Positions 1 to 28,362 of a stretch of DNA of 28,362 bases are shown piece after piece; the stretch's first letter is position 1; the number at the start of each line of letters is the position of its first letter. A model generated the notes under the pieces. The model ran no database searches, was not told the DNA's origin, and saw nothing but the letters and a program-made list of their open reading frames with translations. The position numbers and the translations under genes are program-made. Source of the DNA: Saccoglossus kowalevskii (Eukaryota; Hemichordata; Enteropneusta; Harrimaniidae); the NCBI RefSeq assembly GCF_000003605.2, contig NW_003140313.1, positions 129,631 to 157,992 of the forward strand, written 5' to 3'.

Positions 1-285
1 CTGATCATCACATTTGAATAAAATTTGGTACAAAAATGCTCTAGGACAATATACAGGCCTGATTAATTTTGGGTTAACATTTGTTCATATTAATTCTTTA
101 ATTAGCATAATAATTCATAATTTTTTTGTTCTGTTCTGTTCATATTAGTTACCTGATTTACATAATTAGTTTTCAGCTTTTCCATCAATATCTCATGTAC
201 AAGTAATTTTGAATTAATTTTTAATGTATCTTCAATACTCTCAGCACACGAGAGTTCTTTCTAAGCTTTCTTTGATTAGCTTTAT
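1..285 (+). mobile_element. Family 1 element, 3' end only (cut by the window start)
   Basis: This stretch matches 18738-19069 closely in order and wording, including CTCTAGGACAATA, and ends with the same tail. GCACACGAGAGT at 244-255 is the inverted partner (11 of 12) of the family 1 5' tip ACTCCCGTGTGC seen at 15949. The tail TTTCTTTGATTAG ends at about 285-286. Confidence 0.7.
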
Positions 286-2891: not shown

Positions 2892-3103
2892 TACTGTAGA
2901 ATACTTTATTTTCGCTTGGAATTAATTTTCACTATTTTCGCTGAAGGAATGATTCAGTGAAAATATAATCCAGCGAATATACCTTTTTTCCTATATTTTA
3001 CATTAAACCCATCAAAAATCAGTGAAAATAAATTCTATACAAAACACCCAAAAAGTCTTTTCAGCGAAAATAAATTCCAGCGAAAATAAAGTATTTCACA
3101 GTA
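2892..3103. mobile_element. MITE family 6, copy 2 (212 bp)
   Basis: The ends TACTGTAGAATACTTTATTT and AAATAAAGTATTTCACAGTA are inverted matches. It is in the same orientation as copy 1 and more regular at the tips (TTTTCGCTTGGAATT / AATTCCAGCGAAAA). Confidence 0.85.
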
Positions 3104-3339
3104 TCTAGAGAACTACATGTATTACAGATGGAGTTATGCAGCTGAGCCAATGCTTTATTAAGTTTATCATATAAGTAACATAACTCATTTATCAGAAGAA
3201 TATATATTGTCATGTGACCTAATTAATCTTGCTAGCTTTACAAATTCACAGAAAATAGCTGTAGATACGATAGATGCGAAAAACTGTCACTTTTTCACGG
3301 TCATTTACGGTCATTGTTGCCATACAGATATAATATACA

Positions 3340-3592
3340 TAAATTTACATAAATTCGCCTATTTCCACAGATATCTCAAAAACCACTCATCAGATTTCAA
3401 TGAAACCTAACACGTATGTGGTCTAGTATAATTCACAGATGTGATTAGTTTGAGGTCGGAATCCATGAATATGATTAACTAAATTTGCATAAATTGATCA
3501 ATTTTATGATATCTTGTTTAAAAGACTAATTTGGTTTATTCCCTATTTCAATTCTCTCAGTACATGACTGTTCTTTCTTAGCTTTCTTTGAA
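3340..3592 (+). mobile_element. Family 1 element, degenerate short copy
   Basis: ATCTCAAAAACCACTCATCA then GATTTCAATGAAACC match the internal units of the 16-19 kb elements. The 3' tail CTTTCTTAGCTTTCTTTGA at about 3575 matches the family 1 end. The 5' hairpin was not found. Confidence 0.5.
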
Positions 3593-11000: not shown

Positions 11001-14000
11001 ACCAGGAACAAGAACAAGCTCAACAGATCTTCAGTAATACAGCGGCGTCAGGTGTCCTCACAAATGACCTTGTTAGGATATTGGAGTCTGAACAGGTAAT
11101 GGCTTATGAAGAGATGTAATTGGCTGTATGAAAATAAGCTTGAGATAGTCGACAACACATCTGGTGTTAAATGTACAATCAATTTGATTGGCTAAATACC
11201 GTTACTTGTCATTTTTTAAAAGTCGATAAGCATTATCAAAAATCAATGATGCAAAACCTGCTATTTAAATAAAATTTGTGTATTAAAAACTTCTGAAATT
11301 TTGAAATATTAAAAAAAATGATATAAATTATATGAATTTAAAAAAATAAATATATACATGCCATACAATGGATTTTAATCTGATTGTGGAAATGCATTGT
11401 ATATTATAAATCGCCACTATAGAAGTTTGTTATGACATCACCACTTTATTTTATCACTTCATGATTTGAACCTCTGTTTTCGCTTTATCTCACACATTAT
11501 CTTGCACAGTGCTTTGGAAGTTGAATAATGCTTGGAGAATTCTGTTGGCCAGTTGGTGTGTGGCACAGTGCTATGTAAGTTGCTTGTAGCCAGATTTGCT
11601 TATTGCATCCACAAGAAATAGTCTGAATTGTGTTTTATTTATTCTTTCAGGAGCTGGGGCTGACAGCGGAACCTGTAGACGATAATATTTACAAATGGAG
11701 TGTGAAATTATTTGATTTTGAAGCTGACAGGTATCTCATTTCATATAATTGATACATTTCATATACCGTATTTATCCGGGTAAAAGCCCAGGGTCCTGAA
11801 CATGGAAAATTGCCAAAAAATAGGGGTGGTCCTAAGCCTGGACATCCCTTACAAAAAAAAACGAAAAGTCATGAAAATTGACAACACGCAGATAGAACAG
11901 CGAATAAAAACATGCAACAGAAATAAATGAACAATATGCAACATTAGAAGTAAAAAAAAATTAATGTATTGCTTATAATGTGACAAGTAAACCAGAAGTA
12001 ATAAAAATCAACAGTGAAGATTCAATCGAATTTAGGATTTCCCCTCCGAAAAATAGGTGTCCAATACGTGTGAACTCAAAATGAACTAAAATGTCAGGTT
12101 AAACTGCGTAAACTTTTTTCCAGTTTTGTTAAATACCGGATCAACAGTCATACAAGAACAATAATAATTTACAAACACAGTAAAAATTACGAAAGTTCAT
12201 AGAAAAAAATTCTCAGATCTCTATTTGTACGTTAATCGCCATCTTCTTCAATGTCAGAACCCTTAAAGTCCAAGTCTGCGTCACTGTCATCGTCAAACAA
12301 AATCCCTACAGCTTCGTCTTAAAGTTCGTAAATGTTGTCGCACACAATTTGGCCTTAGCACTTTTAGTCAAATGATTTCGCTGTCTATCAGCTTGGCACT
12401 TTTAATTCACATCTAATCACAATAAAAAGACAGAAATGCAATAGCTGTTATGAAAGATGGTAAAAAAGTTGACAGTCTTCGGTGTGACATTGCAAAATTG
12501 TTGTCCCTAGTTATGGATTCGCAAGCTGCTATCAAATATTTTATAAAGCCAAAATAACGTGATTTCAACCACTCTCCCAGGTATAGGTTGCTACAATATT
12601 GCAACATTGGTTTCATTGTCGATGACGCTAAAGCCGAACGAGTGTGATACTTCCATTGCGGGTCTCCATCTATACTGTAAGATTTGCTTGAATCGTTTAT
12701 AAGGAAGCACGACAAATTTTAAAAAGAGAACTACCGTTTCTGCTTTAATATACATTTTTGTAGACTTGCTGTCTAATATGATTCAGATAAAAATTCTTGA
12801 AAAATAAATGTAAATTATGTGAACAGTGGCGAACGCGCTGCTCTGTATGCAGAATGCGAAATTACCTATTTTGCTGTCACAGCTATTTTGAGTTCACCCC
12901 TCGTTTTACGCAATTGACAATTATTTTTCAAGAATTTTTATCAGGATCACAACAGACTGCAAGGAAGTCAACTCTTAATACAACGAACAAAAATAGGTTT
13001 TTGTTATTTTTTTATTTCAAGTGTAGTAAAAGACCCCTGGGCATATGCCAGGACATTTGTTTATTGTATCAAAAGTGGGGGGTGTGTGTTTGCCCTGACG
13101 TGGGCTCTTACCTGGATAAATACGGTAATTGATACATTTCATATAATTGATACATTTCATATAATTGATACATTTCATATAATTGATACATTTCATATAA
13201 TTGATACATTTCATATAAATGATACATTTCATAATAATTGATACATTTCATATAAATGATACATTTCATAATAATTGATACATTTCATATATACATGTTA
13301 TTGATACATTGTTGCAATTAGATACTGCCTAGGACCATGAAATAGGCCTCCATAAATGACATTAGTTTATGTTGTAAAAAACCAAGGCAAATTGTTACAT
13401 GAATCAATATGCCATTTTTTTCACAACAGTTGTCATGTGTCCTTCCTTGGATTGAGGTGAATTAGTTCAACATTAAGTGGGTGTCCAAAATTACATTAAA
13501 TCTCACCATCTTATGCAGTATTTCATAATTTATTCATATTCATAATTAAGCAACAAGACTGATTTAGCAACTTCTTATGTTTATTTATCCAGTAATATTT
13601 CAAAGGATCTAGAGGCTGTACATTCTAAGTTTGGATACAATTATATCCAACTGGAGATGGACTTTGCTATAGATTTATTTCCATTTTATCCACCACTAGT
13701 TAAAGTGATTAGGCCACGACTGCAGGTAAGACGTCACTTTGAAAGAGTACCATCAAATTATATTTATATTCGGACTGGTATTTATCCGTTTAACTGCTGT
13801 AAAAATGTTGATAAATCAGTTTGTACTCTTTTATTAGCTCCGCTGTCGACTTTGTCGAGCGGAGCTTATCATATGAGTGATTGTCCATCATCGCCGTCGT
13901 CCGTGTCAATGTTTTACTTTTTCGACTTCTTCTTGAAAACTACAAGCCTGAATGCTTTGATACTTGGTGTATATGTACCTTGGGTAGACTTCTCTCAGAT

Positions 14001-17000
14001 TTGTTCATTTCATGATGATATCTTTAATTCTCTAATTTTGGTGAATATTTTTGTCATTTTTGGTAAAAAGTGATATTTTCGACTTCTTGTTGAAAACCGC
14101 AAGTCCAATTGCTTTGATATTACATATATAGGTACTAAATGTGGACCTCTCTCAGATTTGTTCATTTTGTGATGATATCTTCAATTCTCTGATTTTGGTG
14201 AATATTTTTGTAATTTTTGGTAAAATGTGATATTTTCAACTTCTTGTTAAAACCTGCAAGTCCAATTGCTTTGATATTACATGTATAGGTACTACATGTG
14301 GACCTCTCTCAGATTTGTTCATTTTGTAATGATATCTTCAATTCTCTAATTTTGGTGAATATTTTTATAATTTTTGGTAAAAAGTGATATTTTTGAATTC
14401 TTGTTGAAAACAGCAAGTCCCATTGCTTTGATACTATACATATTTTTCATTTTCTAATGATATCTTCAATTCTCTAATTTTGGTGAATATTTTTATAATT
14501 TTTGGTAAAAAGTGATATTTTTGAATTCTTGTTGAAAACAGCAAGTCCCATTGCTTTGATACTATACATATTGTTCATTTTCTAATGATATCTTCTGTTC
14601 TTTAATTGAAATGTGCATTGCTAACAGCGGAGCTATCTCAGCCGACTGGCTGCTTGTTTAGAAATGTATTATTATTTTCTCTGCAGGATTCCATGATGCA
14701 AAGAGTAACTAATATGGAGATGTTGAAATTGTCATTTTGGTAAATAATTTTTTTTATTTACATTAATTTGGGGGCTGTATAGAAGAAGCAGCAATACACA
14801 ACAAAACGGACAGCAAATGAACAATTGGAAATTATCTTTTATATTATTCAGACAGCAAAATAGTTAGCTTGCTGACCAATTTGGCAGACAACAATGTTAC
14901 TCACTTACATGTATCAGCACTACCCTTCTATTAACCTTTTCACCACCAGACATTTTCGGCTAAATTTTTCTGCATTTTGTTCCAATATTCTTCAATATTC
15001 CTGGAAATGAACTTTAATTTTGGAGCCAACAGGCACTATTTGAATAAATTTGAATGAATCAGTTTTTACTCAAAAGATTTTACTCTTTTTGTCCCAATCT
15101 TCTGCAGGAAAGTGCAGACTATAAACAGGACTATCACTATAAACTGTGAATTTGTGATAAAAAGAGGAAACTGGTGGTGAAACGATTAACCCAAACACAT
15201 ACATGTATATTTTATAACAACGGCAGTGACTAATGCCATCTTTGGATGTGCACGACTAGTTCTTGCCTGCAGTCACTCCACAAAACAGAACCAAATGAAA
15301 AAGCCTTGACACTATAATACTTCAACCCATTGCAGGAATCCTACGAAAGATATGAAGTCTGTATTGTCAGAAATCAAGGGTTATTTACAGAATTGGGCAA
15401 GGTATGTTCAAACTATTTGCTCGTTTAAGGGGGTGACCTTCAGAAATTCTGGGAAGGAGGTCTGGAAAACAAAACTCTACTGAGATTATCAACAAAAAAA
15501 AGAGAAAAAATTCAAATCCAGCTCAAAAGTAATCAACAGGGAATCATTTTGCAGTTATGTTTCCCCTCCAAGCACTTCTTATGGTGAACCTAATACTACA
15601 CTGAAGTTTATTTGCTTTGATTACACTCCAGTCAATACAATCACTGTACTGTCGCCATAACTTATTATCAACTCACTACTTGTTAGTCCCCGTTTCAGGC
15701 GCAGCCTGAATGGCAGACTATTAATTCTTATTTAAATTTTCCATCTGTGACATCTCTAACATTTTCTCGGAAATTCTGCAGCAGATATCGATGAAACTTG
15801 GTAGGTTGATGAACAAGTCTCTGTTGAATATGTACATGATATGCACTGAAGATTTTCATCCAAAATTACCTCTCCCTACTGCACTGACAGAGCAACTGAG
15901 CGTGCTCAGAATAAATAATTAGCTCAGATTGTAATGCTAGGGTTTTTGACTCCCGTGTGCGAAGCACAAAAGGGAGTCTTTGCAGTTACCCTGTCTGTAT
16001 GTCTGTATGTATGTATGTATGTATGTATGTATGTATGTATGTATGTCACTTTTTTTGTTCCATCGTTATCTCAAAAACCACTAATCAGATTTTGGTGACA
16101 CTTGGTACATAGATGCTCTGGGATAATCCGCAGAGTTGATTAGGTTTTGGTAAAAATCTATGAATGTTAATTACCTAATTTGCATAATAATTAGCTGATT
16201 TTTAGCTGTTCCAAGACTGTTCCACTGCTACCTGAAGAACCACTCATTGGATTTTGATGAAACTTGGCACATGGATGCTCTGATCTAGTGCACAGATTTG
16301 ATTAGTTTTGGGTAAAAATCTGTTAATATTATTATTTACCTAATTTACATAATGATTAATCAATTTTCGGCTTTTCCACTGATATCTCAAGTACTAATCA
16401 TAACATTTCAATAAAACTTGGTACATAGATGTCATATGACACTGCACAGACCTGATAGTTTTTAGGGTAATATCAGTACATATTAATTACCTAATTTGTA
16501 TAATTAATTAATTTTCAGCTTTTGATATTTCGAGTAGTAATGATCNNNNNNNNNNNNNNNNNNNNNNNNNNNNNNNNNNNNNNNNNNNNNNNNNNAAATG
16601 ATAATTATCTGATTTCAAGCTGTTCCATGACTGTTCCACTGATATATTTCAAGAACCACTCATTGGATTTTGATGAAACTTGGCACATGGATGCTCTGAA
16701 TCAATACGCACATTTGATAAGTTTTGGGTAAAAATCTATGAATATTAATTACCTAATTTGCATGATAATTAACTGATTTCAAGCTGTTCTATGACTGTTC
16801 CACTGATTTTTGATGAACCACTCATTGGATTTCAATGAAACTTGGCACATGGATGCTCTGAACTAATGCGCAGATTTGATTAGTTCGGGTAAAAATCTGT
16901 TAATATTATTAATTACCTAAATTACATAATGATTAATCAATTTTCGGCTTTTCCACTGATATCTCAAGTACTAATCATAACATTTCAATAAAACTTGGTA

Positions 17001-20000
17001 CATAGATGTCATAGGACACTGCACAGACCTGATAGTTTTTAGGGTAATATCAGTACATATTAATTACCTAATTTGCATAATTAATTAATTTTCAGCTTTT
17101 GATATTTCGAGTAGTAATGATCACATTTCAATGAAACTTGGTACATAGTTACTTGAGGACTGTGCAGAGACCTAATTAGTTTTTGGGTAAATATTTTTGC
17201 ATATTAATCACCTTATTAGCATGATTAGTTAATTTTCAGCTTTTCACCTGATATCTCAAGTACTAATCATCACATTTCAATGAGACTTGCGACATAGATT
17301 TGTTAGGACTATGCAGAGACCTGATTAATTTTGGGATAAATAATTGTGCCTATTAATTACCTAATTTGCATAATTAGTTAACTTTTTGCTGTTCCATGGC
17401 TGTTGCACTGATGTCTAAAGAACTACTCATTGGATTTTAATGACACTTTTAAAGAGTACTCATCATCACATTTCAATGAACCTAGGACTATACACCATAT
17501 TAGTTTTTCATAAATATTTATGCTTCTTAATCACCTAATTAACATATTTAATTAATACTGATATCTCAAGTATTGATCATCACATTACGTCATCACATTA
17601 CTTCTCCTACTGCACTGACAGAGCAACTGAGCGTGCTCAGAATAAATAATTAGCTCAGATTGTAATGCTAGGGTTTTTGACTCCCGTGTGCGAAGCACAA
17701 AAGGGAGTCTTTGCAGTTACCCTGTCTGTATGTCTGTCTGTATGTCTGTATGTATGTATGTATGTATGTATGTATGTATGTATGTATGTCACTTTTTTTG
17801 TTCCATCGTTATCTCAAAAACCACTAATCAGATTTTGGTGACACTTGGTACATAGATGCTCTGGGATAATCCGCAGAGTTGATTAGGTTTTGGTAAAAAT
17901 CTATGAATGTTAATTACCTAATTTGCATAATAATTAGCTGATTTTTAGCTGTTCCAAGACTGTTCCACTGCTACCTGAAGAACCACTCATTGGATTTTGA
18001 TGAAACTTGGCACATGGATGCTCTGATCTAGTGCACAGATTTGATTAGTTTTGGGTAAAAATCTGTTAATATTATTATTTACCTAATTTACATAATGATT
18101 AATCAATTTTCGGCTTTTCCACTGATATCTCAAGTACTAATCATAACATTTCAATAAAACTTGGTACATAGATGTCATATGACACTGCACAGACCTGATA
18201 GTTTTTAGGGTAATATCAGTACATATTAATTACCTAATTTGTATAATTAATTAATTTTCAGCTTTTGATATTTCGAGTAGTAATGATCACATTTCAATGA
18301 AACATGGTACATAGTTACTTGAGGACTGTGCAGAGACCTAATTAGTTTTTGGGTAAATATTTGTGCATATTAATCACCTTATTAGCATAATTAGTTAATT
18401 TTCAGCTTTTCACCTGATATCTCAAGTACTAATCATCACATTTCAATGAGACTTGCGACATAGATTTTTTAGGACTATGCAGAGACCTGATTAATTTTGG
18501 GATAAATAATTGTGTCTATTAATTACTTAATTTGCATAATTAGTTAACTTTTTGCTGTTCCATGGCTGTTGCACTGATGTCTAAAGAACCACTCATTGGA
18601 TTTTAATGACACTTTTAAAGAGTACTCATCATCACATTTCAATGAACCTAGGACTATACACCATATTAGTTTTTGATAAATATTTATGCTTCTTAATCAC
18701 CTAATTAACATATTTAATTAATACTGATATCTCAAGTATTGATCATCACATTTGAATAAAACTTGGTACATAAATGCTCTAGGACAATAGACAGCCTTAT
18801 TAATTTTGGGTTAAAATCTGTTCATATTAATTCTCTAATTAGCATAATAATTAATATTTTTTTGGTTCTAATCACATTTCAATGAAACTTGGTACATTGT
18901 GCAGACCTTATTAGTTTTACACTTAAATCTGTTCATATTAGTTACCTTATTTGCATAATTAGTTTTCTGCGTTTCCATCAACATCTCAAGTTCAAGTAAT
19001 TTTGAATTAATTTTTAATGTGTCTTCAATACTCTCAGCACACTGGAGTTCTTTCTAAGCTTTCTTTGATTAGTGATGTCATGACCTTGATCTGAATCAGT
19101 GACAGATGGGTTGTACCATTACCAATCTGAGTGGAAAATGTAGAGGGGTGTCAGGGCTAGATTTTTAATTATAGTGGTGATAATGAAACAAACCCAGGTC
19201 CTGGTAATATACAAAGACCTGAATTGACAAAGAAGTCAAGTGTCATAAAGGTACATCAAGGTTTACTCAGATTTATGAATGCAGTTTCTTGAACATGTAT
19301 GAGACATAGTTTGGTTGCACTTGTGTACTCTGAGATTTTGGACCCGGGTCAATGAAAGTTTTCAGTTATCAGATTATTAAAGGGAAATTACTTTATGATG
19401 AGTTGTACCCACATAGAGTACATATTAATTCAATTGTTTGCAGATGTTCCATGTATTATTTTAATTAAATAACTGTGACATTCATGTCTTGTTAAATTTC
19501 TGTTGTATGTTGTGCATAAATTTTGTTGTGAAACACATTTGTACCAACCGTGGATACATTTATTTTATAGATTGGAATGTGACAGTTGTCGAAATGACCC
19601 CAAAAGATACCCGAAAGGCTCCTATGTGGATATTGAACACCATTTACTAAGACTAGCATTGGTAAGTTGCATTTCAGTGATTTCTACAACAATAAAGTCA
19701 AATTTCTGTGGATGACAGTGCATGAATACTGCACTATGGAGTACCGGGTAATCTCATGAACTGCGAAGGTACATAGAATTGGAACCAAATCCAGATGTTT
19801 TACTGAGAGAGATAATTGGTAGAATTTTCATGTTATTTTCTCAGATATTGCTATGTTGTTTCCTATGACTGCCTATTTTAAAGTCGAAGGAAAAACCCAA
19901 ACTAGTTTAGAAATATGAACCTCAGTTTTCCATTCAAAAGGGTAGCTGAAGTGGGGGTACAGATCTCACACCTGAATTGAAGCTTTCATTGAAACACAAA

Positions 20001-20763
20001 ATAATGAATTACTCGAAACAAATTCCATAATTTAGATATCTTATGTCTAAGAATTACTGACGCTATATTAACTCACTAGAACGATAGTCAGAGTTTTTGA
20101 TTTCCACATTAGATCAGGTACAAGCCAGTTGTTTTACAATAACAATTAGTCAATTATGAGCATATCAGGAATGGGGGGGGGGATCTTTATTGACAGCCTG
20201 ACACAAATGAAGTAAAATTTACAACACTGGGTCAAAAAAAAGTGTCAAGTTTCAATTCATCGTTACTTCAAAATATGGTTGTCCCTCTATCTATTTTGGG
20301 AGCGCGCAAAAAAAAAAAAAATACAAATTATTGCTACCCCAGAAATTAATTCACAAAGGAAAATACATTTTTTTAATATGCTCAGACACAAATTTAGATA
20401 CAGGTGTGAAAACCTTAGCACTATGGTGAAATCACAAAGTCATAGTTTCTTTTTTACAATAGTCTTTTATATTTATGTGAAAAAACATTTTACTTTGCAA
20501 GCAATCTATAGTTTGTTTTCTTTAGATTCACACCTGTCCATTCAAACCAGTGTGTAGAACAAGCACACCACAATATGTACAAAATGTTTTTGTTTTTTTC
20601 ACTACAGGTGAGTGAGATTTCCCCCAGAGCTAACTTGAAGTATTCTATTGAAGTTGAGAAGCCGCCAGAGATCAGACTCGCAGCTGAGGTTGGTAATAAA
20701 CCCCTCAGTCTTATCAGCTTGCCCTGGGAGAAGCATTTCCAACAACTCAAAAACACTAAACCA
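7840..20763 (+). CDS. E2-like (UBC-fold) protein, probably catalytically inactive; nine exons, 5' end missing
   Basis: Joined exons give 337 residues without a stop and with consistent splice phases (0,1,0,2,0,2,2,0,0). Residues 1-77 are acidic, with long Asp/Glu runs; 78-110 are Lys-rich and probably helical. From about 130 to 285 the pattern fits an E2 fold of the UBE2Q kind: IYKWSVKL (first strands), NYIQLEMDF, then [13 protein letters not shown], the E2 hallmark 'FP..YP..PP.V'. After this an active E2 has a cysteine a few residues before a Trp-x-Pro. Here the equivalent stretch is [12 protein letters not shown], with the Trp-Asn-Pro kept but no cysteine. This suggests a UEV-like ubiquitin-binding or scaffold role rather than transfer of ubiquitin; that is inference. 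Residues 286-337 ([15 protein letters not shown]) extend past the UBC fold. The start codon and stop codon were not identified. Exon structure is secure; the name is less so. Confidence 0.75.
8071..8842. other. Intron 1, first part; nothing recognised
   Basis: AT-rich, with no inverted ends, tandem units or open frames that look coding. Confidence 0.5.
8843..9793 (+). mobile_element. Family 4 element, copy 1 (~950 bp, uninterrupted)
   Basis: It matches the two halves at 15685-15947 and 19073-19492, e.g. AATTCTGCAGCAGATATCGA, AGAATAAATAATTAG, CAAACCCAGGTCCTGGT and ACCCACATAGAGTACATATT. Its 3' end holds ACGGGGACT at 9769-9777, the inverted partner of the 5' tip AGTCCCCGT kept in copy 2, then GTGACATTTATGCCTTGT. 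Its own 5' tip is worn (AAATCAGGCGCAG remains). No coding capacity. Confidence 0.7.
10037..10247. mobile_element. MITE family 6, copy 3, opposite orientation (211 bp)
   Basis: The ends TACTGTGAAATACTTTATTT and AAATAAAGTATTTTACAGTA are inverted matches. The internal CTTTTGGGTTTTGTATGG is the reverse complement of the middle of copies 1 and 2. It lies 41 bases upstream of exon 2. Confidence 0.85.
10289..10388 (+). CDS. Exon 2 of the E2-like gene: charged helix
   Basis: The acceptor TTTTAACAG precedes it and the donor GTAGGT follows. It encodes [19 protein letters not shown] then [14 protein letters not shown]. The alternating charged and hydrophobic residues suggest a helix or short coiled coil. 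It joins exon 1 in phase 0 and ends in phase 1. Confidence 0.75.
10537..10814. mobile_element. Fold-back MITE with perfect 16-bp inverted ends (278 bp)
   Basis: GACATCAAGTTACAAA at 10537-10552 is matched exactly in inverse by TTTGTAACTTGATGTC at 10799-10814. Inside, GAGTTACGGG and CCCGTAACTC form further inverted pairs, so most of the element can fold on itself. No clear target duplication was found. Confidence 0.75.
10995..11095 (+). CDS. Exon 3 of the E2-like gene: start of the UBC region
   Basis: The acceptor TTTTCATTTTCAG and donor GTAATG border it. It encodes [20 protein letters not shown] followed by [14 protein letters not shown]. The last part resembles helix 1 of E2 enzymes, which in UBE2Q proteins carries a similar 'S..LM.EL..I' pattern. 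Phase 1 in, phase 0 out. Confidence 0.8.
11096..11650. other. Intron 3; nothing recognised
   Basis: AT-rich sequence with no clear repeat or open frame; GCACAGTGCT occurs twice near 11505 and 11564. Confidence 0.5.
11651..11730 (+). CDS. Exon 4 of the E2-like gene: first UBC strands
   Basis: The acceptor TTTATTCTTTCAG and donor GTATCT border it. It encodes [20 protein letters not shown] then FDFEAD. 'D.IY.W.VKL' matches the UBE2Q-type strand 1-2 region. Its donor is also the first bases of an 18-bp tandem array that fills the start of the next intron. Confidence 0.85.
11731..11765. repeat. Left piece of an 18-bp tandem array (ATTGATACATTTCATATA)
   Basis: About two units directly follow exon 4, with the splice donor GTATCT at the array's edge. 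The array resumes at 13126 after the inserted transposon. Confidence 0.85.
11766..13125 (-). mobile_element. TIR DNA transposon, 1360 bp, TA target, non-autonomous
   Basis: The ends CCGTATTTATCCGGGTAAAA and the inverted match of TTACCTGGATAAATACGG give about 26-bp inverted repeats, flanked by TA at 11764-11765 and 13126-13127. It splits an 18-bp tandem array cleanly. On the minus strand 12232-12318 reads [20 protein letters not shown] then SDIEEDGD and stop, an acidic C-terminal tail of the sort seen in pogo/Tigger-like transposases, which also use TA targets. The rest of a transposase is missing or too decayed to see. The 100-codon minus frame at 12413-12715 and the 111-codon + frame at 12797-13132 show no transposase features. 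Confidence 0.8.
12232..12318 (-). pseudogene. Remnant of a transposase acidic C-terminus
   Basis: 28 residues rich in Asp/Glu follow an in-frame stop and end in TAA. Upstream in the same frame IVCDNIYEL is readable before that stop. Consistent with the tail of a DDE transposase of the pogo/Tigger kind; the assignment rests on composition, TA target and place in the element. Confidence 0.35.
13126..13290. repeat. 18-bp tandem array, right piece, about nine units
   Basis: The unit ATTGATACATTTCATATA repeats, with variants AATGATACATTTCATA and an AT insertion. It is continuous with the units at 11731-11765 once the transposon is removed. Confidence 0.9.
13593..13725 (+). CDS. Exon 5 of the E2-like gene: E2 hallmark FPFYPP
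   Basis: The acceptor TTTATTTATCCAG and donor GTAAGA border it. It encodes [40 protein letters not shown] and RPRLQ. The [15 protein letters not shown] stretch is the strongest E2 signature in the window, equivalent to 'FP..YPF.PP.V.F' of active E2s. Confidence 0.9.
13835..14658 (+). mobile_element. Family 2 Helentron-like element, copy 1 (~824 bp), fills intron 5
   Basis: The 5' end is a hairpin: AGCTCCGCTGTCGA pairs with TCGAGCGGAGCT, followed by a CG-rich stretch (CATCGCCGTCGTCCGTG). Tandem units of about 150 bp with GGTGAATATTTTTGT and TTGCTTTGATATTAC follow. Near the 3' end ACAGCGGAGCT (14624-14634) is the exact inverse of the 5' AGCTCCGCTGT, then CAGCCgactGGCTG makes a hairpin, then CTTGTT. 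Without it intron 5 would be about 140 bp. Confidence 0.75.
14687..14739 (+). CDS. Exon 6 of the E2-like gene: active-site region lacking cysteine
   Basis: The acceptor TTTTCTCTGCAG and donor GTAAAT border it. It encodes [17 protein letters not shown] plus a split Trp. This is where an active E2 would carry G-x-(I/L)-C-(L/M)-x-(I/L)-L before Trp-x-Pro. No cysteine is encoded in this exon or the one before. Its acceptor lies 28 bases after the end of a mobile element that makes up most of intron 5. Confidence 0.85.
14740..15335. other. Intron 6; nothing recognised
   Basis: No repeat, inverted ends or coding-looking frame noted. Confidence 0.5.
15336..15401 (+). CDS. Exon 7 of the E2-like gene: C-terminal UBC helices
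   Basis: The acceptor CCCATTGCAG and donor GTATGT border it. It encodes (W)[20 protein letters not shown] then AR. The W-N-P followed by a helix with VLSEI is the usual position of the E2 'W.P...I..VL..I' segment. Confidence 0.85.
15685..15947 (+). mobile_element. Family 4 element, copy 2, left half (interrupted)
   Basis: It starts AGTCCCCGTTTCAGGC gca GCCTGAATGGCAGACT, a slightly worn hairpin whose tip equals that of family 3. It then follows copy 1 (8843 onward) up to AATGCTAGGGTTTT, where a family 1 element starts. The right half resumes at 19073. Confidence 0.75.
15998..16046. repeat. (GTAT)n microsatellite inside family 1
   Basis: About eleven GTAT units follow two GTCTGTAT units. The equivalent run in the second copy (17729-17789) is 12 bases longer. 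Confidence 0.95.
16546..16595. other. Assembly gap (50 Ns)
   Basis: Exactly 50 Ns, so the true length is probably unknown. It lies inside a near-identical tandem duplication, where assembly is least reliable. Confidence 1.
17604..19069 (+). mobile_element. Second copy: family 4 flank (17604-17678) plus complete family 1 element (17679-19069)
   Basis: 17604-18290 repeats 15873-16545 almost base for base, offset by 1731 then 1743. This family 1 copy reaches its true 3' end: GCACACTGGAGT (19037-19048) is the inverse (11 of 12) of the 5' tip ACTCCCGTGTGC, followed by TTCTTTCTAAGCTTTCTTTG and a return to family 4 sequence at about 19073. Confidence 0.75.
19073..19492 (+). mobile_element. Family 4 element, copy 2, right half
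   Basis: It resumes at GTGATGTCATGACCTTGATC exactly where copy 1 continues after AGAGTTTTCA. It ends with GACATtcATGTC, a 5-bp-stem hairpin, then TTGTT at 19488-19492, 79 bases before exon 8. Confidence 0.75.
19571..19661 (+). CDS. Exon 8 of the E2-like gene
   Basis: The acceptor TTATTTTATAG and donor GTAAGT border it. It encodes [20 protein letters not shown] then [10 protein letters not shown]. It holds two cysteines, CDSC, but these come about 30 residues after the W-N-P, too late to be the E2 active site. Intron 7, before it, is 4.2 kb and made almost wholly of nested repeats. Confidence 0.85.
19662..20607. other. Intron 8; nothing recognised
   Basis: Contains a G run at about 20175, an A run at about 20310, and a long pyrimidine tract before exon 9. 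The short open frames have no coding features. Confidence 0.5.
20608..20763 (+). CDS. Exon 9 of the E2-like gene
   Basis: The acceptor TTTTTTTCACTACAG and donor GTAAGA border it. It encodes [40 protein letters not shown] and [12 protein letters not shown]. The exon begins with GTGAGT, itself a consensus 5' splice site, so acceptor and donor motifs abut. It ends in phase 0, with no stop. What follows is unknown: the next good exon is at 25461 and belongs to the dynein-like block. Confidence 0.8.
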
Positions 20764-21135
20764 GTAAGATCATAACAATCACTCTCACTATCTTTACTCT
20801 CTGCTTATTAATCCATTTCTCTTTCTCTCTCTTTTTCTCTCAAGCATCATTATTTAGGTTTCACTCTTCTCTCATTGGGTGATTCTATTTTGCTATCAGG
20901 GATGCATGCTTGGTTAAAGTGGGTGATGTACTCATTTTACATTCACTTGTGCTAAAAAGACCTTTCTAGACTATGCATAGATACAGATTTTTTTTTTAGG
21001 ATTTGGATTTCTTAACACAGAGTTTCCTAGTTTTCATCATGGAGAGTAATAAGTGTAAATTGTTTTCTGATTGACACAATTTCCTGCCCTGAAAAGTCAA
21101 TTAAATCATCATGACTCTAATTCAGACTTTTGGAG
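20764..21135. other. Non-coding stretch with a CT-rich tract
   Basis: The tract at about 20813-20845 (TTTCTCTTTCTCTCTCTTTT) resembles an acceptor tract but no exon with an open frame and donor was found after it. Confidence 0.4.
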
Positions 21136-21319
21136 TACTGTAAAATCTGTATTAGAAGCCGCAGCTTCTATTAAAATGGTACAATGCAACAGAGGGGATG
21201 CGGCTTTTATTAGAGCATCTACACATATGAGAAATGGTAAATTTTTGGTTCTCAATTGTTCAAAAATAATGGGTGCGGCTTCTATTAGGGATGCGGCTTC
21301 TAATAGAGATTTTACGGTA
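21136..21319. mobile_element. MITE family 5, copy 2 (184 bp)
   Basis: TACTGTAAAATCTGTATTAG + AAGCCGC at the left is matched in inverse by GCGGCTTCTAATAGAGATTT + TACGGTA at the right, 25 of 27 positions. The core repeats GCGGCTTNTATTAG. Confidence 0.85.
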
Positions 21320-22130
21320 GAACATTGTATAAGTGTATAATTATCCCGCCAACGTTTTGATATCATTTTGTATTATTTTTCTGCATTTTTTTTTATAAGT
21401 ATTGTTTTTTTTTATCAATTTTTGACCAAATACACCTAATATTTCGCATTGACTACAGGTCTTGTTAATTTTTTCTGAGAAATATGCAAAAAATTAAGCG
21501 TGAATTTTTTGTGAACGGCAACAAAATTTTACTTTGGCACTTAAAAAATGAATGAAACCTTATTTTAAATGGGATTGGATTAACAGGAAAATCTTGTTAT
21601 TTGCGGGTTACAGTCCCTAAAGCTTCTATCAAGACTTAACTCTTATTTAACAATTACTTCATCATTTAAGCAGTAGTACAAGTGTGTTTTGCTGAATATT
21701 AAACATCTCATCTAAGGTTTGATAAATGATTGCCTGTCAAAAGAAATTTGAAATCAATGCACAATTACTTGCCCTCTGTCGATTCGAGAAATTAAGCAAT
21801 CATTTTTTCTCCAACAAAGTTGAGGTGTTTTATGTTGAAATATGCATTTGCTCCAAGTAACAAAGGGTGTCTCTATCATCCAGCACGTTAACATTCTCAC
21901 TAAGAGGTGGTGGAACTTAGATGTTGAATCTCTATTTCATACGCAATTCATGCTTCTCAGGTCATATCACATCACATACAGCCATTGGGATGTTCTGTCG
22001 TACATCCAGAAGAAACCATCGTCACTTAGTGATTTAATCGCTACATTTATATTTATTGCTGGCATTGCATTGTGGGTCAATCTTCCCCAAAAAGGGAAGC
22101 AATACCGGATGCAAACAATATCTGGCTTTT
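21320..22130. other. Non-coding; weak open frame at 21842-22171
   Basis: A 109-codon + frame here runs into the hairpin of the next mobile element and has no recognisable domain, so I do not call it a gene. CCCCAAAAAGGG near 22085 is a small inverted repeat. Confidence 0.4.
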
Positions 22131-22811
22131 TAGCTCCGCTGTCGACACAGCGGAGCTGTTCATATTACTGATTGTCCGTCGTCGTCGTCCGTCGCCGTCA
22201 ACTTTACAATTTCAACTTCTGCTTCAAAACCGCAAGTCCGAATGTTTTCAAATTTGATATGCATGTACCTTGGATGGTTCTTTCTCGGATTTGTTCATTT
22301 CATGTCAAAATCTCAAATTCTCTATTTTTGGTGAATATTTTTGTCATTTTTAGTAAAAAGTGATATTTTCGACTTCTTGAAAAAAAACGGCAAGTTCGAT
22401 TGCTTTGATATTGTATATATAGGTACTACATGTGGACCTCTCTCAGATTTGTTCATTTCGTGACAATATCTTTAATTCTCTAGTTTCGATGAATATTTTT
22501 GTCATTTTTGGTAAAAAGTAATATTAAAAACAGCAAGTCTGATTGCTTTGATATTACATATATAGGTACTACATGTGGACCTCTCTCAGGTTTGTTCATT
22601 TTGTGATGATATCTTTAATTCTCTAATTTTGATGAATATTTTTGTCATTTTTGGTAAAAAGTGATATTTTCGACTTCTTGTTAAAAACCACAGGTCCGAT
22701 TGCTTTGATACTACATGTATACATATTGTGAATTTTTAATGATATTTTCAGTTCTTAATTGAAATGTGCATTGCTAATAGCGGAGCTATCTCAGCTGACA
22801 GGCTGCTTGTT
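22131..22811 (+). mobile_element. Family 2 Helentron-like element, copy 2 (~680 bp)
   Basis: A perfect 5' hairpin AGCTCCGCTGT cgac ACAGCGGAGCT (22132-22157) is followed by a CG-rich run (GTCCGTCGTCGTCGTCCGTC) and tandem ~150-bp units. The 3' end has AGCGGAGCT (22779-22787), then CAGCtgacagGCTG and CTTGTT. Confidence 0.8.
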
Positions 22812-23183
22812 AAAGTATGTGCTGTGCATTTATGGATTAAGAAGAATATGCCAAGGTTAGATAATGAAATGAAGATCCTATTGAAATTGTTCACTTCAAA
22901 TATGGATTTCATAGTTCCAAGCAGTTATCTAAACTGGTTCTAACTAATAGAATCACAGAATACCATGGATGCTTTCCCACAGCCATTGGTAAGGTTTGAA
23001 AATAAGAAATGAGTGATATGTGATTCTTTTCGAGATAACAAAAATATGTGCTACAAATATACATGAATGGAGATCAATCAAAGCCATTTCTTTCCCCAAC
23101 TCACTTGCGTTTTTTTAATCGAAATGTGATTTCTTGCAATCAGTAGGATGTAGCTCATATCACAAAAGTTACAAAATCGTTGT
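22812..23183. other. No gene or repeat recognised
   Basis: AT-rich sequence between the family 2 element and the minisatellite. Confidence 0.5.
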
Positions 23184-23600
23184 CAGCTGGTATTGACCAA
23201 TCAACTTTGACAGCTGGTATTGACCAATCATTGTCGACAGCTGGTATTGACCAATCATTGTCGACAGCTGGTATTGACCAATCATTGTCGACAGCTGGTA
23301 TTGACCAATCATTGTCGACAGCTGGTATTGACCAATCATTGTCGACAGCTGGTATTGACCAATCATTGTCAACCTCTAGTATTGACCAATCATTGTCGAC
23401 AGCTGGTATTGGCCAATCATTGTCGACAGCTGGTATTGACCAATCATTGTCGACAGCTGGTATTGACCAATCATTGTCGACAGCTGGTATTGACCAATCA
23501 TTGTCGACAGCTGGTATTGACCAATCATTGTCGACAGCTGGTATTGACCAATCATTGTCAACCTCTAGTATTGACCAATCATTGTCGAAAAACTGGTATT
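23184..23600. repeat. 27-bp minisatellite built around a CCAAT box, about 15 units
   Basis: The unit is ACAGCTGGTATTGACCAATC + ATTGTCG. As 27 is a multiple of three, it reads as a nine-residue repeat (STAGIDQSL) on + and as others on minus, with no stops. A variant unit (ACCTCTAGTATTG) recurs after exactly seven units, a higher-order period of 189 bp. I regard the long open frames as repeat artefacts. Confidence 0.95.
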
Positions 23601-23636
23601 GGCCAATAATTGTTGTCAGCTTGTATTGACCATTAA

Positions 23637-23935
23637 TTGTTGACATCTGGTATTAGCCAATCAGTGTGGACACCAAGTCTGGTATTGGCCAATCATTGTG
23701 GACACCATGTCTGGTATTGGCCAATCATTGTGGACACCATGTTTGGTATTGGCCAATCATTGTGGACTGACAGTGTCTGGTATTGGCCAATCATTGTGGA
23801 CACAGTGTCTGGTATTGGTCAATCATTGTGGACACCATGTCTGGTATTGGCTAATCATAATTGACACAGTGTCTGGTATTGACCAATCATAGTTGACACC
23901 ATGTCTGGTATTGACTACTCATTGTACAGCTGGTG
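23637..23935. repeat. 32-bp minisatellite, diverged relative of the 27-bp array, about nine units
   Basis: The unit is GGTATTGGCCAATCATTGTG + GACACCATGTCT, with variants. It shares GGTATTG(A/G)CCAATCATTGT with the preceding array, so both probably come from one ancestor with a changed spacer. Confidence 0.9.
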
Positions 23936-23985
23936 TATATCATTTAATCTAATGTTACTTAGTATGTAATGTTTACTGAATATTT

Positions 23986-25036
23986 AGTCCCCGTTCGGAC
24001 GTAGTCCGAAAACGGGGACTTATGTTTTGCCCTGTGTGTGTGCGTGCGTCCGTGCGTCCGTGATCACCTGTATCTCAAACATGCATGGACTGATTAAGTT
24101 CAAACTTCACTCATACATCACACATTATATGGGACATATGCACATGCATTTTTTTCATGATCCGATTAACGATAGCCGAATAGCGACCATTTTAAGGCCG
24201 AAAATGCATCAAAATCACACATTTTCACCATTCCGGACCCGGATCTCAGTTATGCATGGACGGATTTCGTTCAAATTTGGTACATACATTAAACATAATG
24301 TGACCTTGATGCACATCATTTTTCTTGGGGGGGATCGGGTTTGAAATGGCCGACTGGCGGCCATTTTGTTTTAAAGAATTCAGTTCTGGATCCGTATCTG
24401 AGACATGCTTGGATTGATCGAGTTCAAACTTCACACACACAAGGTACATCATGTCACAAATATGTATGTGCATTTGTTTCATGATCTCATTAACGATAGC
24501 CAAATGGCGGCCGCTTTAAGGCCGAGAATGCATTGAAATCGCACATTTTCACCATTCCGGAACCGGATCTCAGTTATGCATGGACGGATTTCAGTCAAAT
24601 TTGGTACATACATTAAACATAATAGGACCTTGATGCACGTCATTTTTTTTTCCGGATCAAGTTCGAAATGGCCGACTGGCGGCCATTTTCTTAAAGAATT
24701 CAGTTCTGGATCCGTATCCAAGACATGTCTGGATTGATCAAGTTCAAACATCACACACACATGGTGCATCATGTCACAAATAGATATGTGCATTTGTTTC
24801 ATGATCCGCTTAACAATAGCTGAATGATGGCCATTTTAAGACCGAAAATGCATTAAAATCACGTATTTTCACAATTCCGGAACCAGATCTCAGTCATGCA
24901 TGGATGGATGGATTTTGTTCAGATTTAGTACAATGTGTTGTACATATGCAGGTGCATTTCGGTCATGATCTGCTTTGAATGTATATGTCACTCAAATATG
25001 AACGGAACGGGGACGTGTCATTGACAATGACTTGTT
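23986..25036 (+). mobile_element. Family 3 Helentron-like element, copy 1 (~1050 bp)
   Basis: The 5' hairpin AGTCCCCGTTCGGAC gta GTCCGAAAACGGGGACT (23986-24020) leads into GTGTGTGTGCGTGCGTCCGT, then tandem units of about 330 bp. At the 3' end GAACGGGGAC (25005-25014) is an exact inverse of GTCCCCGTTC, followed by GTCATTGACAATGAC, a 15-base palindrome, and TTGTT. Open frames here (24027-24344 and two on minus) have no domain. Confidence 0.8.
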
Positions 25037-25460
25037 TTCACATGTCCTTACTACCGGTAGTTTCTCAGCAAGTAATGACTAACTTGTATTTTGAAAGCTG
25101 CCACAAACATTGCATCATGAGCCATACACCATGTATATGTATTTGAGGTTTGACTGACTGACTGACTGATGGCTATTTGTGTTTGCTACCAATTCTTGGA
25201 ATGTGTGTAATTGCTGTTCAAATAAAATTGTATGAATCACCTATACTCCACTATATATGCATACAAATAATATGCAACTTCCAATAGCATTGATGTGGCC
25301 TTCAACACAACATACAAGCTGTGATACCCCCTCCCCCCCCCTGCTTATAACATGTTCACAAAAATCCTGCTTTGATGGACCATGTCATCGATGACTAACC
25401 ACTTGTTGATTTAACTTGCATTCAATTTGACACAACTTTTGATGGGTATGGTATTTTTAG
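25037..25460. other. No gene recognised; short TGAC run at about 25151-25168
   Basis: If the dynein-like gene is separate, its promoter would be expected in or before this stretch. No clear promoter element was found. Confidence 0.4.
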
Positions 25461-25636
25461 ATTTTGGCACCCAGACCACCGTCTGCGAGAAGTAATGTAC
25501 CCGGACCAGCATTTAGAACTACCATGTTTAGACGGGATCAAGTGCAGGCAGTGGCAAGGAGACAGCAGTTGAAACGGCGTGGTAGTAATTCATCCCTTGA
25601 TGAAGAAATTATTAAAGCTGTTGGGAAGACTCACAG
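25461..25636 (+). CDS. Exon 10: basic N-terminal linker, first dynein-block exon
   Basis: The acceptor GTATTTTTAG and donor GTGAGT border it. It encodes ILAPRPPSARSNVPGPAFRT, TMFRRDQVQAVARRQQLKRR and GSNSSLDEEIIKAVGKTH. It is in phase 0 with exon 9. If the dynein gene is separate, this is either an internal exon or carries the start at 25524 with a 5' UTR that happens to be open. Confidence 0.7.
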
Positions 25637-27522
25637 GTGAGTAATGTTCTGAGTTCTCCACTATCACGTCTTATTGTTTTCTCATCAACTATTTTTTTCT
25701 GCAGGCCTATCAATTAATGTGCAAGTCAAATTAAATGTATTATAAGTTTAGATGGATTATTTGTTTGTAAGCTAGTCAACAAATTTGCAGTTGCAGGTGC
25801 ATTTCAATTCAATCTGCAGCTTTAAGTGCTAGACTCAAGTATAAAATATTTCATAATTTTGCTGGACCTCTTTGTGAATTTATGCATATTAGAACATAAT
25901 TAAAAAGTTTACGCTTCCTTTCAACTTCCTAGTACATGTGCCAGCTAAAATTGACTATAAATACATCAATGTTAAAAATTAAAAAAATAGCAGAATTCAA
26001 TTTGCTGAAAAACAAATGTTCATCCACTGACGTCATAGTTATTTTTATGCACTCCTGTTCACAGGCAAGGGAGTGGCTCAATAAGGGTACACAACATCTG
26101 GTTATAAAAGCATAAGTACATGAAATTGTAAATGGGAAGCCACTACCGGTACTATGGGCAACATGCTTAAAATCATTGAATTTTCACTGATATGTACTTT
26201 GTATTTGATTTGGAGAAGAGTTCATAGAGTCTGCATTTATATATGATTACATATTTTTGACCCTTATTATTTTACTAATAGTGATACAGAGCAAGTAGCA
26301 ACCCAGGGCCATGCTTCTCCAGAGGGCAGCAGTCATGCTGTTGACACTGGAAGCAAACAACAAAAAATCCATGAAACAGAGGAACCAGAAGTTTTATCAT
26401 TTGAGAGGCCACTAACAGAAGAGGGAAGATCAAGACTTGATGCTGTTAGGTCAGTCACGTCAGTGACATTTAAACTAGATAATATATCACAGGCACCATC
26501 CAGAGCTGGCTCTGCTGGCTCCAGAGTTCCATCCGCAAGAACTGCTACTCCAGCATCATCTGCATTTTCTCTGAGGCCAGATCCTAATATCGTGTTAACA
26601 CATCTGAAAACGAATATTTACGATGACACAGGTAGGTACACTATTTATATTTGTTAAAGACAATTACAGTATTGGTTAAAGAGTTATCATTCGATTTCAG
26701 TGGGTTCAATCTCCATTTTTATATTTTTTGCCAGAACCAGATAATGATGACGCCATTTATCACTTGAAGAGAATGCGTACAAAACTGGGACTGGTGACTG
26801 AGTTGCCCCATTATGGTGCATCCATTAAAGAACAAATGGATGGAATCGAAGATAGATTAGCAGATCCTTTGAAGGTAAATCACAAAGTATCAGTATTTGG
26901 ATTATATTTCTGTGTATATTATTATCTCATGTGTGTATTGCACATATGGTGGCTTTACATTTTTACTCATTGTATGAGTTCAGCTTGTATGTCAAAGAGG
27001 GTGTCTACTTGACCAATATCTTAAGATTCATTATTTGAAAGCAAATTTACATTAATTTTAATAACTTCATTACATGCTTTCGGATAATATACACAAATTT
27101 TACTATTCAAATAATGACATACATCAACAGTTAAAATTAAATTTGTTAATTGTTGTTTGCTAGTAACTGTCTGTCTGACCATTACCACTTGTACAGTAAC
27201 TGTACAGTACACACCCGACTGTAAAATACTGAATCATCACTCAAATTTGTGTGAAAGTGAAGACATGTAAAAATAACAAGAACTTTGGTGAGTGTGGATT
27301 TCAATTTCAAAATTTAGTAATTTCAAATTAATCGTTTTTATTTTCAACTTTCAGTACATGATGGAAGATCATGTTGATAATGGCGAGTTTCTGTATGCGT
27401 TGCCAAGAAACAGGGCTGATACAAGGGGACGTTACAATCGTTATGATCTTCAGGTTGTCTCACCTCATGTAGCTAAATCAGCAAAGGGGTATTTTACACT
27501 CAGCGCACATGGTGTGACAATG
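25461..27522 (+). CDS. N-terminal part of an axonemal dynein heavy chain-like protein; four exons, continues past the window
   Basis: Four exons give 278 residues in one frame. The first 58 are basic with a Ser/Arg/Pro-rich start; the next 117 are acidic then Ser/Ala/Arg-rich low complexity (SRAGSAGSRVPSARTATPAS). The final part holds IEDRLADPLK, GEFLYALPRNR, RYNRYDLQVVS and YFTLSAHGVTM. In my memory this matches the N-terminal region of dynein heavy chains, best DNAH6, where a 'DPL..GFLY..P......Y..Y.L.VVS.....YYT.S...VT' pattern occurs. Axonemal dynein heavy chains are the motor subunits that bend cilia and flagella; this segment would lie in the tail that binds other chains, far from the ATPase ring. 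DNAH14 or DNAH1/3/7/12 are alternatives. The first in-frame ATG is at 25524, with A at -3, but the frame is open upstream of it. Confidence 0.6.
25637..26281. other. Intron 10; nothing recognised
   Basis: AT-rich, with ordinary splice borders GTGAGT and ACTAATAG. Confidence 0.5.
26282..26631 (+). CDS. Exon 11: low-complexity linker of the dynein-like protein
   Basis: The acceptor TTTTACTAATAG and donor GTAGGT border it. It is the largest exon seen (350 bases, 116 full codons). It runs from acidic/polar (SDTEQVATQGHASPEGS) through SFERPLTEEGRSRLDAVRS to a Ser/Ala/Arg-rich tract and ends LRPDPNIVLTHLKTNIYDDT. Low-complexity N-termini are common in axonemal dynein heavy chains. Confidence 0.75.
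26735..26874 (+). CDS. Exon 12 of the dynein-like protein
   Basis: The acceptor ATTTTTTGCCAG and donor GTAAAT border it. It encodes EPDNDDAIYHLKRMRTKLGL, VTELPHYGASIKEQMDGIED and RLADPLK. It ends in phase 0. The 'DPL' sits just before the FLY..P motif of exon 13, the order I recall in DNAH6. Confidence 0.8.
26875..27354. other. Intron 12; nothing recognised
   Basis: AT-rich, ordinary splice borders, no repeat structure seen. Short open frames on both strands are not convincing. Confidence 0.5.
27355..27522 (+). CDS. Exon 13 of the dynein-like protein: conserved tail motif
   Basis: The acceptor TTTTCAACTTTCAG and donor GTGAGT border it. It encodes YMMEDHVDNGEFLYALPRNR, ADTRGRYNRYDLQVVSPHVA and KSAKGYFTLSAHGVTM. 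This is the most recognisable dynein heavy chain segment here. A mobile element begins 13 bases after the exon end. Confidence 0.8.
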
Positions 27523-27535
27523 GTGAGTTATTTTT

Positions 27536-28362
27536 AGTCCCCGTTCGGGCGCAGTCCGAAAACGGGGACTTATGTTTTGACCTCCGTGCGTGCGTGCGTC
27601 TGTGCGTGCGTCCGGACATGTATCTTAGAAATGCCTGGATCAATCACAATCAAACTTCACACATACATCATACATGATATTATACATATGCACGTCAATT
27701 TGTTTCACGATCTGATTTAAGATGGCGGAATGGCGGCCATTTTTGTGTTAAAAATCATCAAAATCAAGCATTTCCCAGCTGTTTATAGATGGATTTTGTT
27801 CAAACCTTGTATATACGTTGGACATTATAGGACCTTGATGCACAACATGTTGTTTTACGATCTGATTTAAGATGGCCGAATGGTGTCCATTTTTGTGCTG
27901 AAAAATCCTAAAAATCCAGCATTTCTCGGCTGTTTACAGATGGACTTTGTTCAAACTTTATATATACATTAGACATTATGGGCCCTTCATGCAAATAATT
28001 TTGTTTTTCAGATAAGATTCAAAATGGCCGGCTGGCGGCCATTTTGTTTTAATGAATGTGGTTCTCGTGCCATATCTCTGACTTGTTTTGACTGATTATG
28101 TTCAAATTTTAAATATTCATTATACATCATGTCATAGATAAACAGATATATTGGTTCGACGATCATATTCAAAATGGCCGAATAGTGGTCATTTTTGTGC
28201 TAAAAAATCATCAAATATCAAGCATTTATGGCATTTATGGATGGATTTCAGTCAAACTTGGTACATACATTAGACATTACTGGTTCCTGATGCACGTCAT
28301 TTTATTTGTCAAGATTGGATTCAAAATGGCTGACTGGCAGCCATTTTGTTTTAATGATTGTG
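27536..28362 (+). mobile_element. Family 3 Helentron-like element, copy 2, cut by the window end
   Basis: The hairpin AGTCCCCGTTCGGGC gca GTCCGAAAACGGGGACT is followed by GTGCGTGCGTGCGTCTGTGC and tandem units with GGCGGCCATTTT. It starts 13 bases after exon 13. Its 3' end lies outside. Confidence 0.8.

Follow-up and report, generated by a model that had tools for sequence, protein, structure and literature searches.

The window analyzed here is a 28,362-bp stretch of the Saccoglossus kowalevskii genome (positions 129,631–157,992 of contig NW_003140313.1, G000:C3134:129631-157992, in an assembly of 572,110,611 bases and 4830 contigs) with a G+C content of 34%. It contains complete and decayed copies of four groups of repeats, in which a short terminal sequence, the tip, typically recurs in a hairpin at the 5′ end and in inverted orientation close to the 3′ end. 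Their structure and insertion sites make it very likely that these repeats are several families of non-autonomous rolling-circle transposons, Helentrons of the HINE/DINE-1 type with Helitron2-like ends.

Repeat families in the window

All of the elements lie on the + strand. Family 2 has two complete members, F2A (13835..14657) and F2B (22131..22810). F2A begins with the tip AGCTCCGCTGT and a 5′ hairpin, continues through a GTC-rich run and tandem units of ~157 bp, and closes with the inverted tip ACAGCGGAGCT, a CAGCC/GGCTG hairpin and the end CTTGT; the 5′ hairpin of F2B is formed from its tip with an 11-bp perfect stem. Family 3 is represented by the complete element F3A (23985..25035), which carries the tip AGTCCCCGTTC, a GTGC/GTCC run, 320-bp units, an inverted tip, a TCATTG/CAATGA hairpin and a CTTGT end, and by F3B (27535..28362), truncated at the window end. 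Family 4 is represented by F4X (15684..19492), which ends in CTTGT and is split at 15947/19070 by a family-1 insertion. The latter comprises F1A (15947..17605), a 5′ portion that lacks a 3′ end and forms the first half of a 1731-bp tandem duplication, and F1B (17678..19069), a complete element with the tip ACTCCCGTGTGC, a TGTA/GTCT run, units of ~150–160 bp, and an inverted tip followed by the end CTTTGAT. Microsatellite-like runs such as those of families 1–3 were not seen in family 4.

Several older remnants are also present. F4old (about 8845..9795) is a decayed family-4 copy with an intact inverted 3′ tip (9769–9777) and a CTTGT end; its 5′ tip is missing, and its left side adjoins a piece of a family-3 unit (8758..8842). 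F1old1 (1..276) is the 3′ part of a further family-1 copy ending in CTTTGATT, F1old2 (about 3330..3592) has a decayed form of the same tail, and F2old (6569..6924) is an old remnant of family-2 tandem units. There is no coding capacity in the elements checked (F1, F2A, F2B, F3A, F3B and F4old), the longest stop-to-stop frame being one of 118 codons in F3A.

The tips, 5′ hairpins, microsatellite-like runs, tandem units and inverted 3′ tips recorded in the initial annotation all lie within one base of the places it gave. Families 3 and 4, however, share their first ten tip bases, AGTCCCCGTT, and the four families amount to three tip types. Moreover, the family-1 copies it listed at 15948 and 17679 are a single insertion that was later tandemly duplicated, because the repeated stretch (15875–16046 and 17606–17777, 99% identical at a spacing of 1731 bp) includes 73 bp of the family-4 host flank. 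A 13-bp repeat lies at the join (17577–17601) and a gap of 50 N within F1A (16546–16595), so that either a recent event or an assembly artefact is possible.

The window looks like animal DNA, its + strand containing candidate exons, many bordered by AG/GT (with edges partly placed). Joined exons specify an E2 ubiquitin-conjugating enzyme related to UBE2Q (1zuo, E 1.3e-5; 2qgx, E 4.4e-5), and exons farther to the right encode a protein that matches a dynein heavy chain weakly (E 0.032).

Inverted tips near the 3′ ends

A pair of subterminal inverted repeats (subTIRs) of ~11–15 bp, the 5′ one nearly terminal and the 3′ one internal, is found within single copies of families 1, 2 and 3, and in family 4 only across two copies (F4X and F4old). 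In each of the four families the 3′ repeat lies 18–23 bases inward of the end. As a chance control, each 12-mer of the window (28,289, true tips included) served as a mock tip to be compared with the same 3′ stretch, and both the ungapped match and the longest exact run were recorded. The inverted tip of F2A matches at 11/12 positions with an exact run of 11 bases, each reached by 6 mock tips; that of F2B matches at 10/12 (30 mock tips) with a run of 9 (19 mock tips), and that of F3A at 10/12 (103 mock tips) with a run of 10 (12 mock tips). F1B matches at 11/12, reached by only 3 mock tips, although its longest exact run of 6 bases is not rare (1104 mock tips) because a single mismatch splits it. 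This family-1 pair, given as 11/12 in the initial annotation, is in fact perfect in most copies, GCACACGGGAGT pairing with the tip at 12/12 positions in 10 of the 12 3′ ends from the genome. In contrast to these, F4X matches its own 3′ end at 7/12, which 11,484 mock tips also reach and which is chance level; the inverted tip of this element has been lost. The 9/9 pair AGTCCCCGT/ACGGGGACT earlier reported for family 4 was a composite, combining the tip of the copy at 15685 with the 3′ end of the other copy at 9769.

Hairpins and tandem units

Perfect hairpins with arms of at least 9 bases and loops of 3–20 occur at 14 distinct places in the window, and an arm A+T fraction of at most 0.40 singles out just four of them, which coincide with the tips of F2A, F2B, F3A and F3B. 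The interrupted stems of family 1 and F4X are absent from this list. For F4X, described earlier as forming the 5′ hairpin from its own tip, a hairpin is present, but its stem is mostly the inner TTCAGGC/GCCTGAA and the tip pairs only partly. When one sequence from each of the four families was compared with 200 shuffles, none or one of the shuffles folded as well as the 5′ hairpin; for the 3′ hairpin of family 3 (one sequence) the figure was 4/200.

The 3′ palindrome between subTIR and end is visible in families 2 and 3, short in family 4 and lacking in the family-1 tail. In family 1, 10 of 13 ends have ACTCTC before the inverted tip, and ACTCTC/GGGAGT could form a stem that uses the subTIR. 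An end resembling family 2 at locus L022 has CAACC..GGTTG for the usual CAGCC..GGCTG, with both arms changed. Related 3′ ends at L015, L017 and L026 carry a tip resembling ACGGGGACT and a hairpin of the type GCC(A/G)TGCATGGC in place of GACATTCATGTC; this change in both hairpin arms suggests that they belong to a further putative family.

The number of tandem units varies. Seventeen complete family-3 copies have lengths near 402, 673–764, 1040–1050 and 1357–1435 bp, in steps of about one 320-bp unit, the counts being limited to copies with both ends in reach, with longer copies falling outside. Family-3 units contain a strong internal hairpin like AAATGGCCGACTGGCGGCCATTT, at 24344–24366, 24666–24688, 28020–28046 and 28322–28348, with a core, ATGGCGGC, that we take to resemble a YY1 site. 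Homology among units was assessed by pairwise local alignments of 15 pairs against 100 shuffles. Twelve pairs gave z<3 and two same-family pairs z>60; families 1 and 3 gave z=3.8 (score 33, shuffle maximum 32) in one pairing and z=−0.3 in another (F1 vs F3b). Searching with a profile of the family-1 unit gave three matches in family 3 and one in F4X (E 0.0015–0.03), with E 0.21 on the other strand of F4X and a single match of E 0.09 in a reversed-window control, and searches in the reverse direction, into family-1 units, gave E 0.24–0.88 with the family-3 profile and 0.07–0.6 with that of family 2. We see here a weak hint of a short core box that may be common to the tandem units of families 1, 3 and 4.

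Element ends and insertion sites across the genome

Genome copies were sampled by scoring the best 40 of 1944 first-look candidates for family 1 (85 matches, 20 loci fetched), of 1558 for family 3 (30 loci, one of them the window's own copy) and of 535 for family 2 (six stretches, of which L063 has a second end on the other strand, giving seven 5′ ends). The family-1 counts comprise 20 5′ ends and 12 3′ ends, leaving out L001 and L002 (the window copies) and L004–L008 (the same as L009–L013). The 40 best-scored 5′ ends of families 2 and 3 are 91–98% like the window copy.

There are several consistent features of these ends. First, the base before the tip is T in 56 of the 57 5′ ends (20 from family 1, 30 from family 3 and 7 from family 2), and upstream similarity stops within a few bases of the tip. 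Second, the preceding positions are T-rich. Family 1 has T at −1 and −2 in 20/20 ends and at −4 and −5 in 19/20 each, with no base common to more than 12/20 from −6 to −12. Family 3 has T at −1 in 29/30 and at −2 in 30/30, the pentamer before the tip being TTATT (13), TTTTT (10), TATTT (3), TTGTT (3) or TTGTC (1), and all seven family-2 ends follow TTTTT. The element is preceded by TTTT in 17/20, 7/7 and 10/30 ends of families 1, 2 and 3, and by TTAT in a further 13/30 of family 3; a TTNT before the cut accounts for 18/20, 7/7 and 27/30. Third, a T follows the 3′ end, after CTTTGATT in 10 of 12 family-1 ends, after CTTGT in 15 of the 17 family-3 copies with a 3′ end in reach, and after CTTGT in all four family-2 sense ends. 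The ends of families 1 and 3 are sharp, and flank conservation does not extend beyond about 6 bases.

Unfilled sites locate the insertion point. The family-3 copy L056 lies in a repeat found unfilled in the paralogues L015, L026, L027 and L033. Insertion was at TGTGTTGT^TATC, and the only extra base at the junction is the first base of the element, C here and T in 29 of 30 copies; the element is most simply the base before the tip through CTTGT, inserted between T and T of TTGT^T. The family-3 copy L049 compared with the unfilled L022 agrees, within a T run. For family 1, F4old provides an unfilled paralogous site (9070..9150) for the insertion in F4X, and comparison with 9100–9115 of that site places the insertion at GTTTT^(T or C)AGTG; for the 11 complete family-1 copies no spanning unfilled site was found among the loci compared. 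At these sites the elements went in between two Ts, and at most a single T, perhaps belonging to the element itself, is duplicated.

At L052 (minus strand, about 1466–1500) a family-3 element sits precisely where a family-2 element ends (CTTGT^T), with GGCTGCTTGTT on one side of the junction and AGTCCCCG on the other, so that two different families stand nose to tail.

Search for an autonomous partner

The genome contains eight Helitron_like_N matches on seven contigs. Three loci of 6.5–8.5 kb each (L064, L065 and L066) were fetched; contigs C651, C3452, C2109 and C1873 were left out. On L064 (G000:C2261:3145500-3154000, minus strand), three consecutive open stretches in two reading frames encode Helitron_like_N, PIF1 and Exo_endo_phos (AP-type endonuclease) domains. 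Rep, PIF1 and endonuclease together make up the Helentron domain set in PMC4067079, which, as with the other papers cited here, we draw on in excerpt. The predicted domains of L064 indicate that this genome encodes, or once encoded, an enzyme of Helentron type. L065 has a 1446-codon frame with the Helitron_like_N match that runs off the contig, and L066 is a fragment containing 1360 N. The element ends of L064 were not found in the fetched 8.5 kb, and no family-1, -2 or -3 tip within one mismatch is present in L064 or L065, the best across the three loci having 2–4 mismatches. The oyster study likewise linked no autonomous partner to the Cg_HINEs (excerpts of PMC7492417).

Alternative interpretations

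Several observations weigh against a Helentron-type assignment. No autonomous element with the family tips, and no Rep-helicase element sharing the family ends, was found in the 6.5–8.5 kb stretches examined from three of the seven contigs with matches. The 3′ hairpins of the other families are weak, as many as 59, 46 and 93 of 200 shuffles folding as well for families 1, 2 and 4 (one sequence each), and family 1 has TGAT^T at its 3′ end, which departs from TTNT^T. Scoring was confined to the best 40 candidates of each family, so that the copies under study belong to the best-conserved ones, and 13 of the 30 family-3 loci have no 3′ end within reach of the fetched stretch. At the family-1 and L049 sites, T runs leave the exact insertion point uncertain by about one base. 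Finally, a 1-base T duplication is indistinguishable from the first T of the element, because that base is T in nearly all copies; the C of L056 may itself be a duplicated T that has mutated.

A possible one-T duplication is the reason that we place the assignment no higher than very likely and leave a small probability for elements of the miniature inverted-repeat transposable element (MITE) type with a target duplication of T or TT. With T on both flanks such a duplication can be drawn on single copies, as was once debated for DINE-1 (excerpts of PMC2374699), and 0–3 letters are common to the end and the start of the flanks in the 17 family-3 copies. However, this variation leaves no constant duplication length, comparison of L056 with its unfilled paralogues shows one extra base at most, there a C, and the 3′ inverted repeat of all four families is internal, as described above. 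A MITE origin is therefore improbable.

Even less probable is that segmental duplication or recombination spread these repeats as satellite-like arrays whose hairpin ends are incidental. Arrays do differ by about whole units, and the 1731-bp tandem duplication includes host flank; for F1A and F1B this explanation still holds. For the families as a whole it fails, given the sharp ends of families 1 and 3, the lack of flank conservation beyond about 6 bases and the existence of unfilled sites. Canonical Helitrons (Helitron1) are the least credible candidate and fail, for although they would provide rolling-circle-like ends, a 3′ hairpin and no clear duplication, the elements lack 5′-TC and CTRR-3′, insert at T^T instead of A^T, and have a 5′ hairpin that Helitron1 is without in the portions of PMC3627910 consulted.

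The assignment to Helentrons of the HINE/DINE-1 type, already made in the initial annotation, is supported by the T^T insertion, the asymmetric subTIRs and, in families 2–4, the 3′ hairpin with CTTGT.

Proposed transposition mechanism

The end positions, the T^T insertion at unfilled sites, the presence of the tip in three places in families 1–3 and the variable unit number are observed here, and the enzyme steps that follow are inferred from work on Helitron2 and Helentrons. A Rep-helicase-endonuclease supplied in trans would nick the 5′ end after a TTNT-like site, and copying primed by the 3′-OH would displace a strand. This strand would be released at the 3′ end, at CTTGT^T in families 2–4 and TTTGAT^T in family 1, and would join a T-rich T^T target. 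The tip would serve as 5′ subTIR, with its complement in the 5′ hairpin and an inverted copy near the 3′ end, and pairing of the 5′ and 3′ tips probably tells the machinery that replication has come full circle. For Helitron2 the proposal is that this pairing disrupts the 5′ hairpin and thereby determines where replication stops (excerpts of PMC3627910); the occurrence of an element's own tip at all three places in families 1, 2 and 3 fits such a termination role.

It is conceivable, though we are inclined to doubt it, that one nicking specificity serves all of the families, given that the donor 5′ junction (TTNT^T-tip), the 3′ ends of families 2–4 (CTTGT^T) and the target (TTNT^T) have a common reading. 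An element's 3′ terminus would then be a target for an element of another family, as at L052, although the 3′ end of family 1 is an exception. On this view the identity of each family would reside only in its thrice-recurring tip, and the families could share one Rep, the core box (families 1, 3 and 4) and possibly a strand preference relative to transcription. The last of these arises from the window itself, where 11 independent copies or fragments (F1old1, F1old2, F1A/F1B as one, F2A, F2B, F2old, F3A, F3B, the family-3 fragment, F4X and F4old) all lie on one strand, sense to the host genes (2 × 2^−11, ~0.001), in a small sample from one window and for an idea formed after seeing the data. 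A permissive minus-strand search (E≤1) of the window gave 20 rows, many of them self-matches of the family-3 hairpin; the best other match, of the 3′ part of F4X to 5850–5950 (64%, E 6.5e-4), was not counted as a copy. Another repeat in the window (687–901, 2885–3103 and 10037–10253) occurs on both strands. Orientation bias is reported for IS200/IS605 and Tn7.

Other features of the window

Both family-4 copies (9441–9530 and 19152–19240) contain a frame reading G-D-(S/N)-E-T-N-P-G-P-G, like the 2A-type motif of non-LTR (long terminal repeat) retrotransposon proteins. It is possibly a captured or inherited coding remnant; a Pfam search with the frame from the older copy gave no match, and a literature search for Helentron with NPGP found none. 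Unrelated tandem arrays lie at 1518–2054 (23-bp units), 13126–13291 (18-bp) and 23184–23925 (27/32-bp).

Relationship to known elements

As far as we can tell, the families are new but of a known kind, set apart from published families by descriptions and not by comparison at the sequence level. In a literature search by tip letters the papers listed had titles on other subjects, and a search for the core-box letters with Helitron found none. Exact-pattern scans for families 1, 2 and 3 and the core box in viral contigs, and for family 3 in prokaryote genome contigs, gave no match, as expected for animal DNA.

The whole structural plan is already in print, including the 5′ hairpin that had been regarded as perhaps family-specific. 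A 5′ hairpin formed from the tip, as an asymmetric terminal inverted repeat (ATIR), defines the ends of Helitron2 (PMC3627910), the 5′ hairpin arm of Cg_HINE is the 'IR complementary to the subTIR' (PMC7492417), and descriptions of DINE-1 include a 5′ inverted repeat or palindrome (PMC2374699, PMC4067079). T runs make the ends of satellite-carrying Helentron derivatives difficult to place, and to this class the present families add well-bounded members with unfilled sites. Several tips within one genome also constitute a natural data set that bears on whether tip pairing ends rolling-circle copying and on whether one Rep serves many tips.

Helitron2, as excerpted from PMC3627910, resembles these families in its asymmetric terminal inverted repeats, 5′ tip hairpin, 5′-T and a 3′ ATIR about 20–30 bp inside the end, and its member Helitron-1N1_CRe likewise inserts after TTTT without duplication. 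The one complete domain set found in this genome, unlike that of Helitron2, includes an endonuclease, which Helentrons have and Helitron2 lacks according to the sections of PMC4067079 consulted. In FoHeli of Fusarium (PMC5148889, in excerpt), too, the tip forms part of a 5′ hairpin and recurs in inverted orientation close to the 3′ end; FoHeli3–5 lack a 3′ hairpin, as does the family-1 tail, and FoHeli1/2 place the 3′ inverted repeat within a hairpin, as may hold for family 1 (ACTCTC/GGGAGT), although FoHeli elements are fungal and coding and have other terminal letters. The DINE-1/HINE elements of Drosophila and Metaseiulus (excerpts of PMC2374699 and PMC4067079) share subTIRs of 12–15 bp, a partial inverted repeat or palindrome on the 5′ side, a GTCY-rich microsatellite and central repeats (in DINE-1), a 3′ stem-loop (visible here in families 2–4) and TT insertion; their tips differ, and they are likened here by description and not by sequence.

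There is a further likeness to Cg_HINE of the Pacific oyster, from what is excerpted of PMC7492417. Its tips are different (by description rather than comparison at the sequence level), and family 1 departs from it in lacking a palindrome after the 3′ subTIR. Both have a 5′ subTIR of 11–12 bp, a complementary inverted repeat and a mostly tetranucleotide microsatellite, followed downstream by a short tandem array, a 3′ subTIR and, as far as it is visible here (families 2–4), a palindrome, and in both there are several families per genome, each with element-specific tips and with no autonomous partner linked to them.

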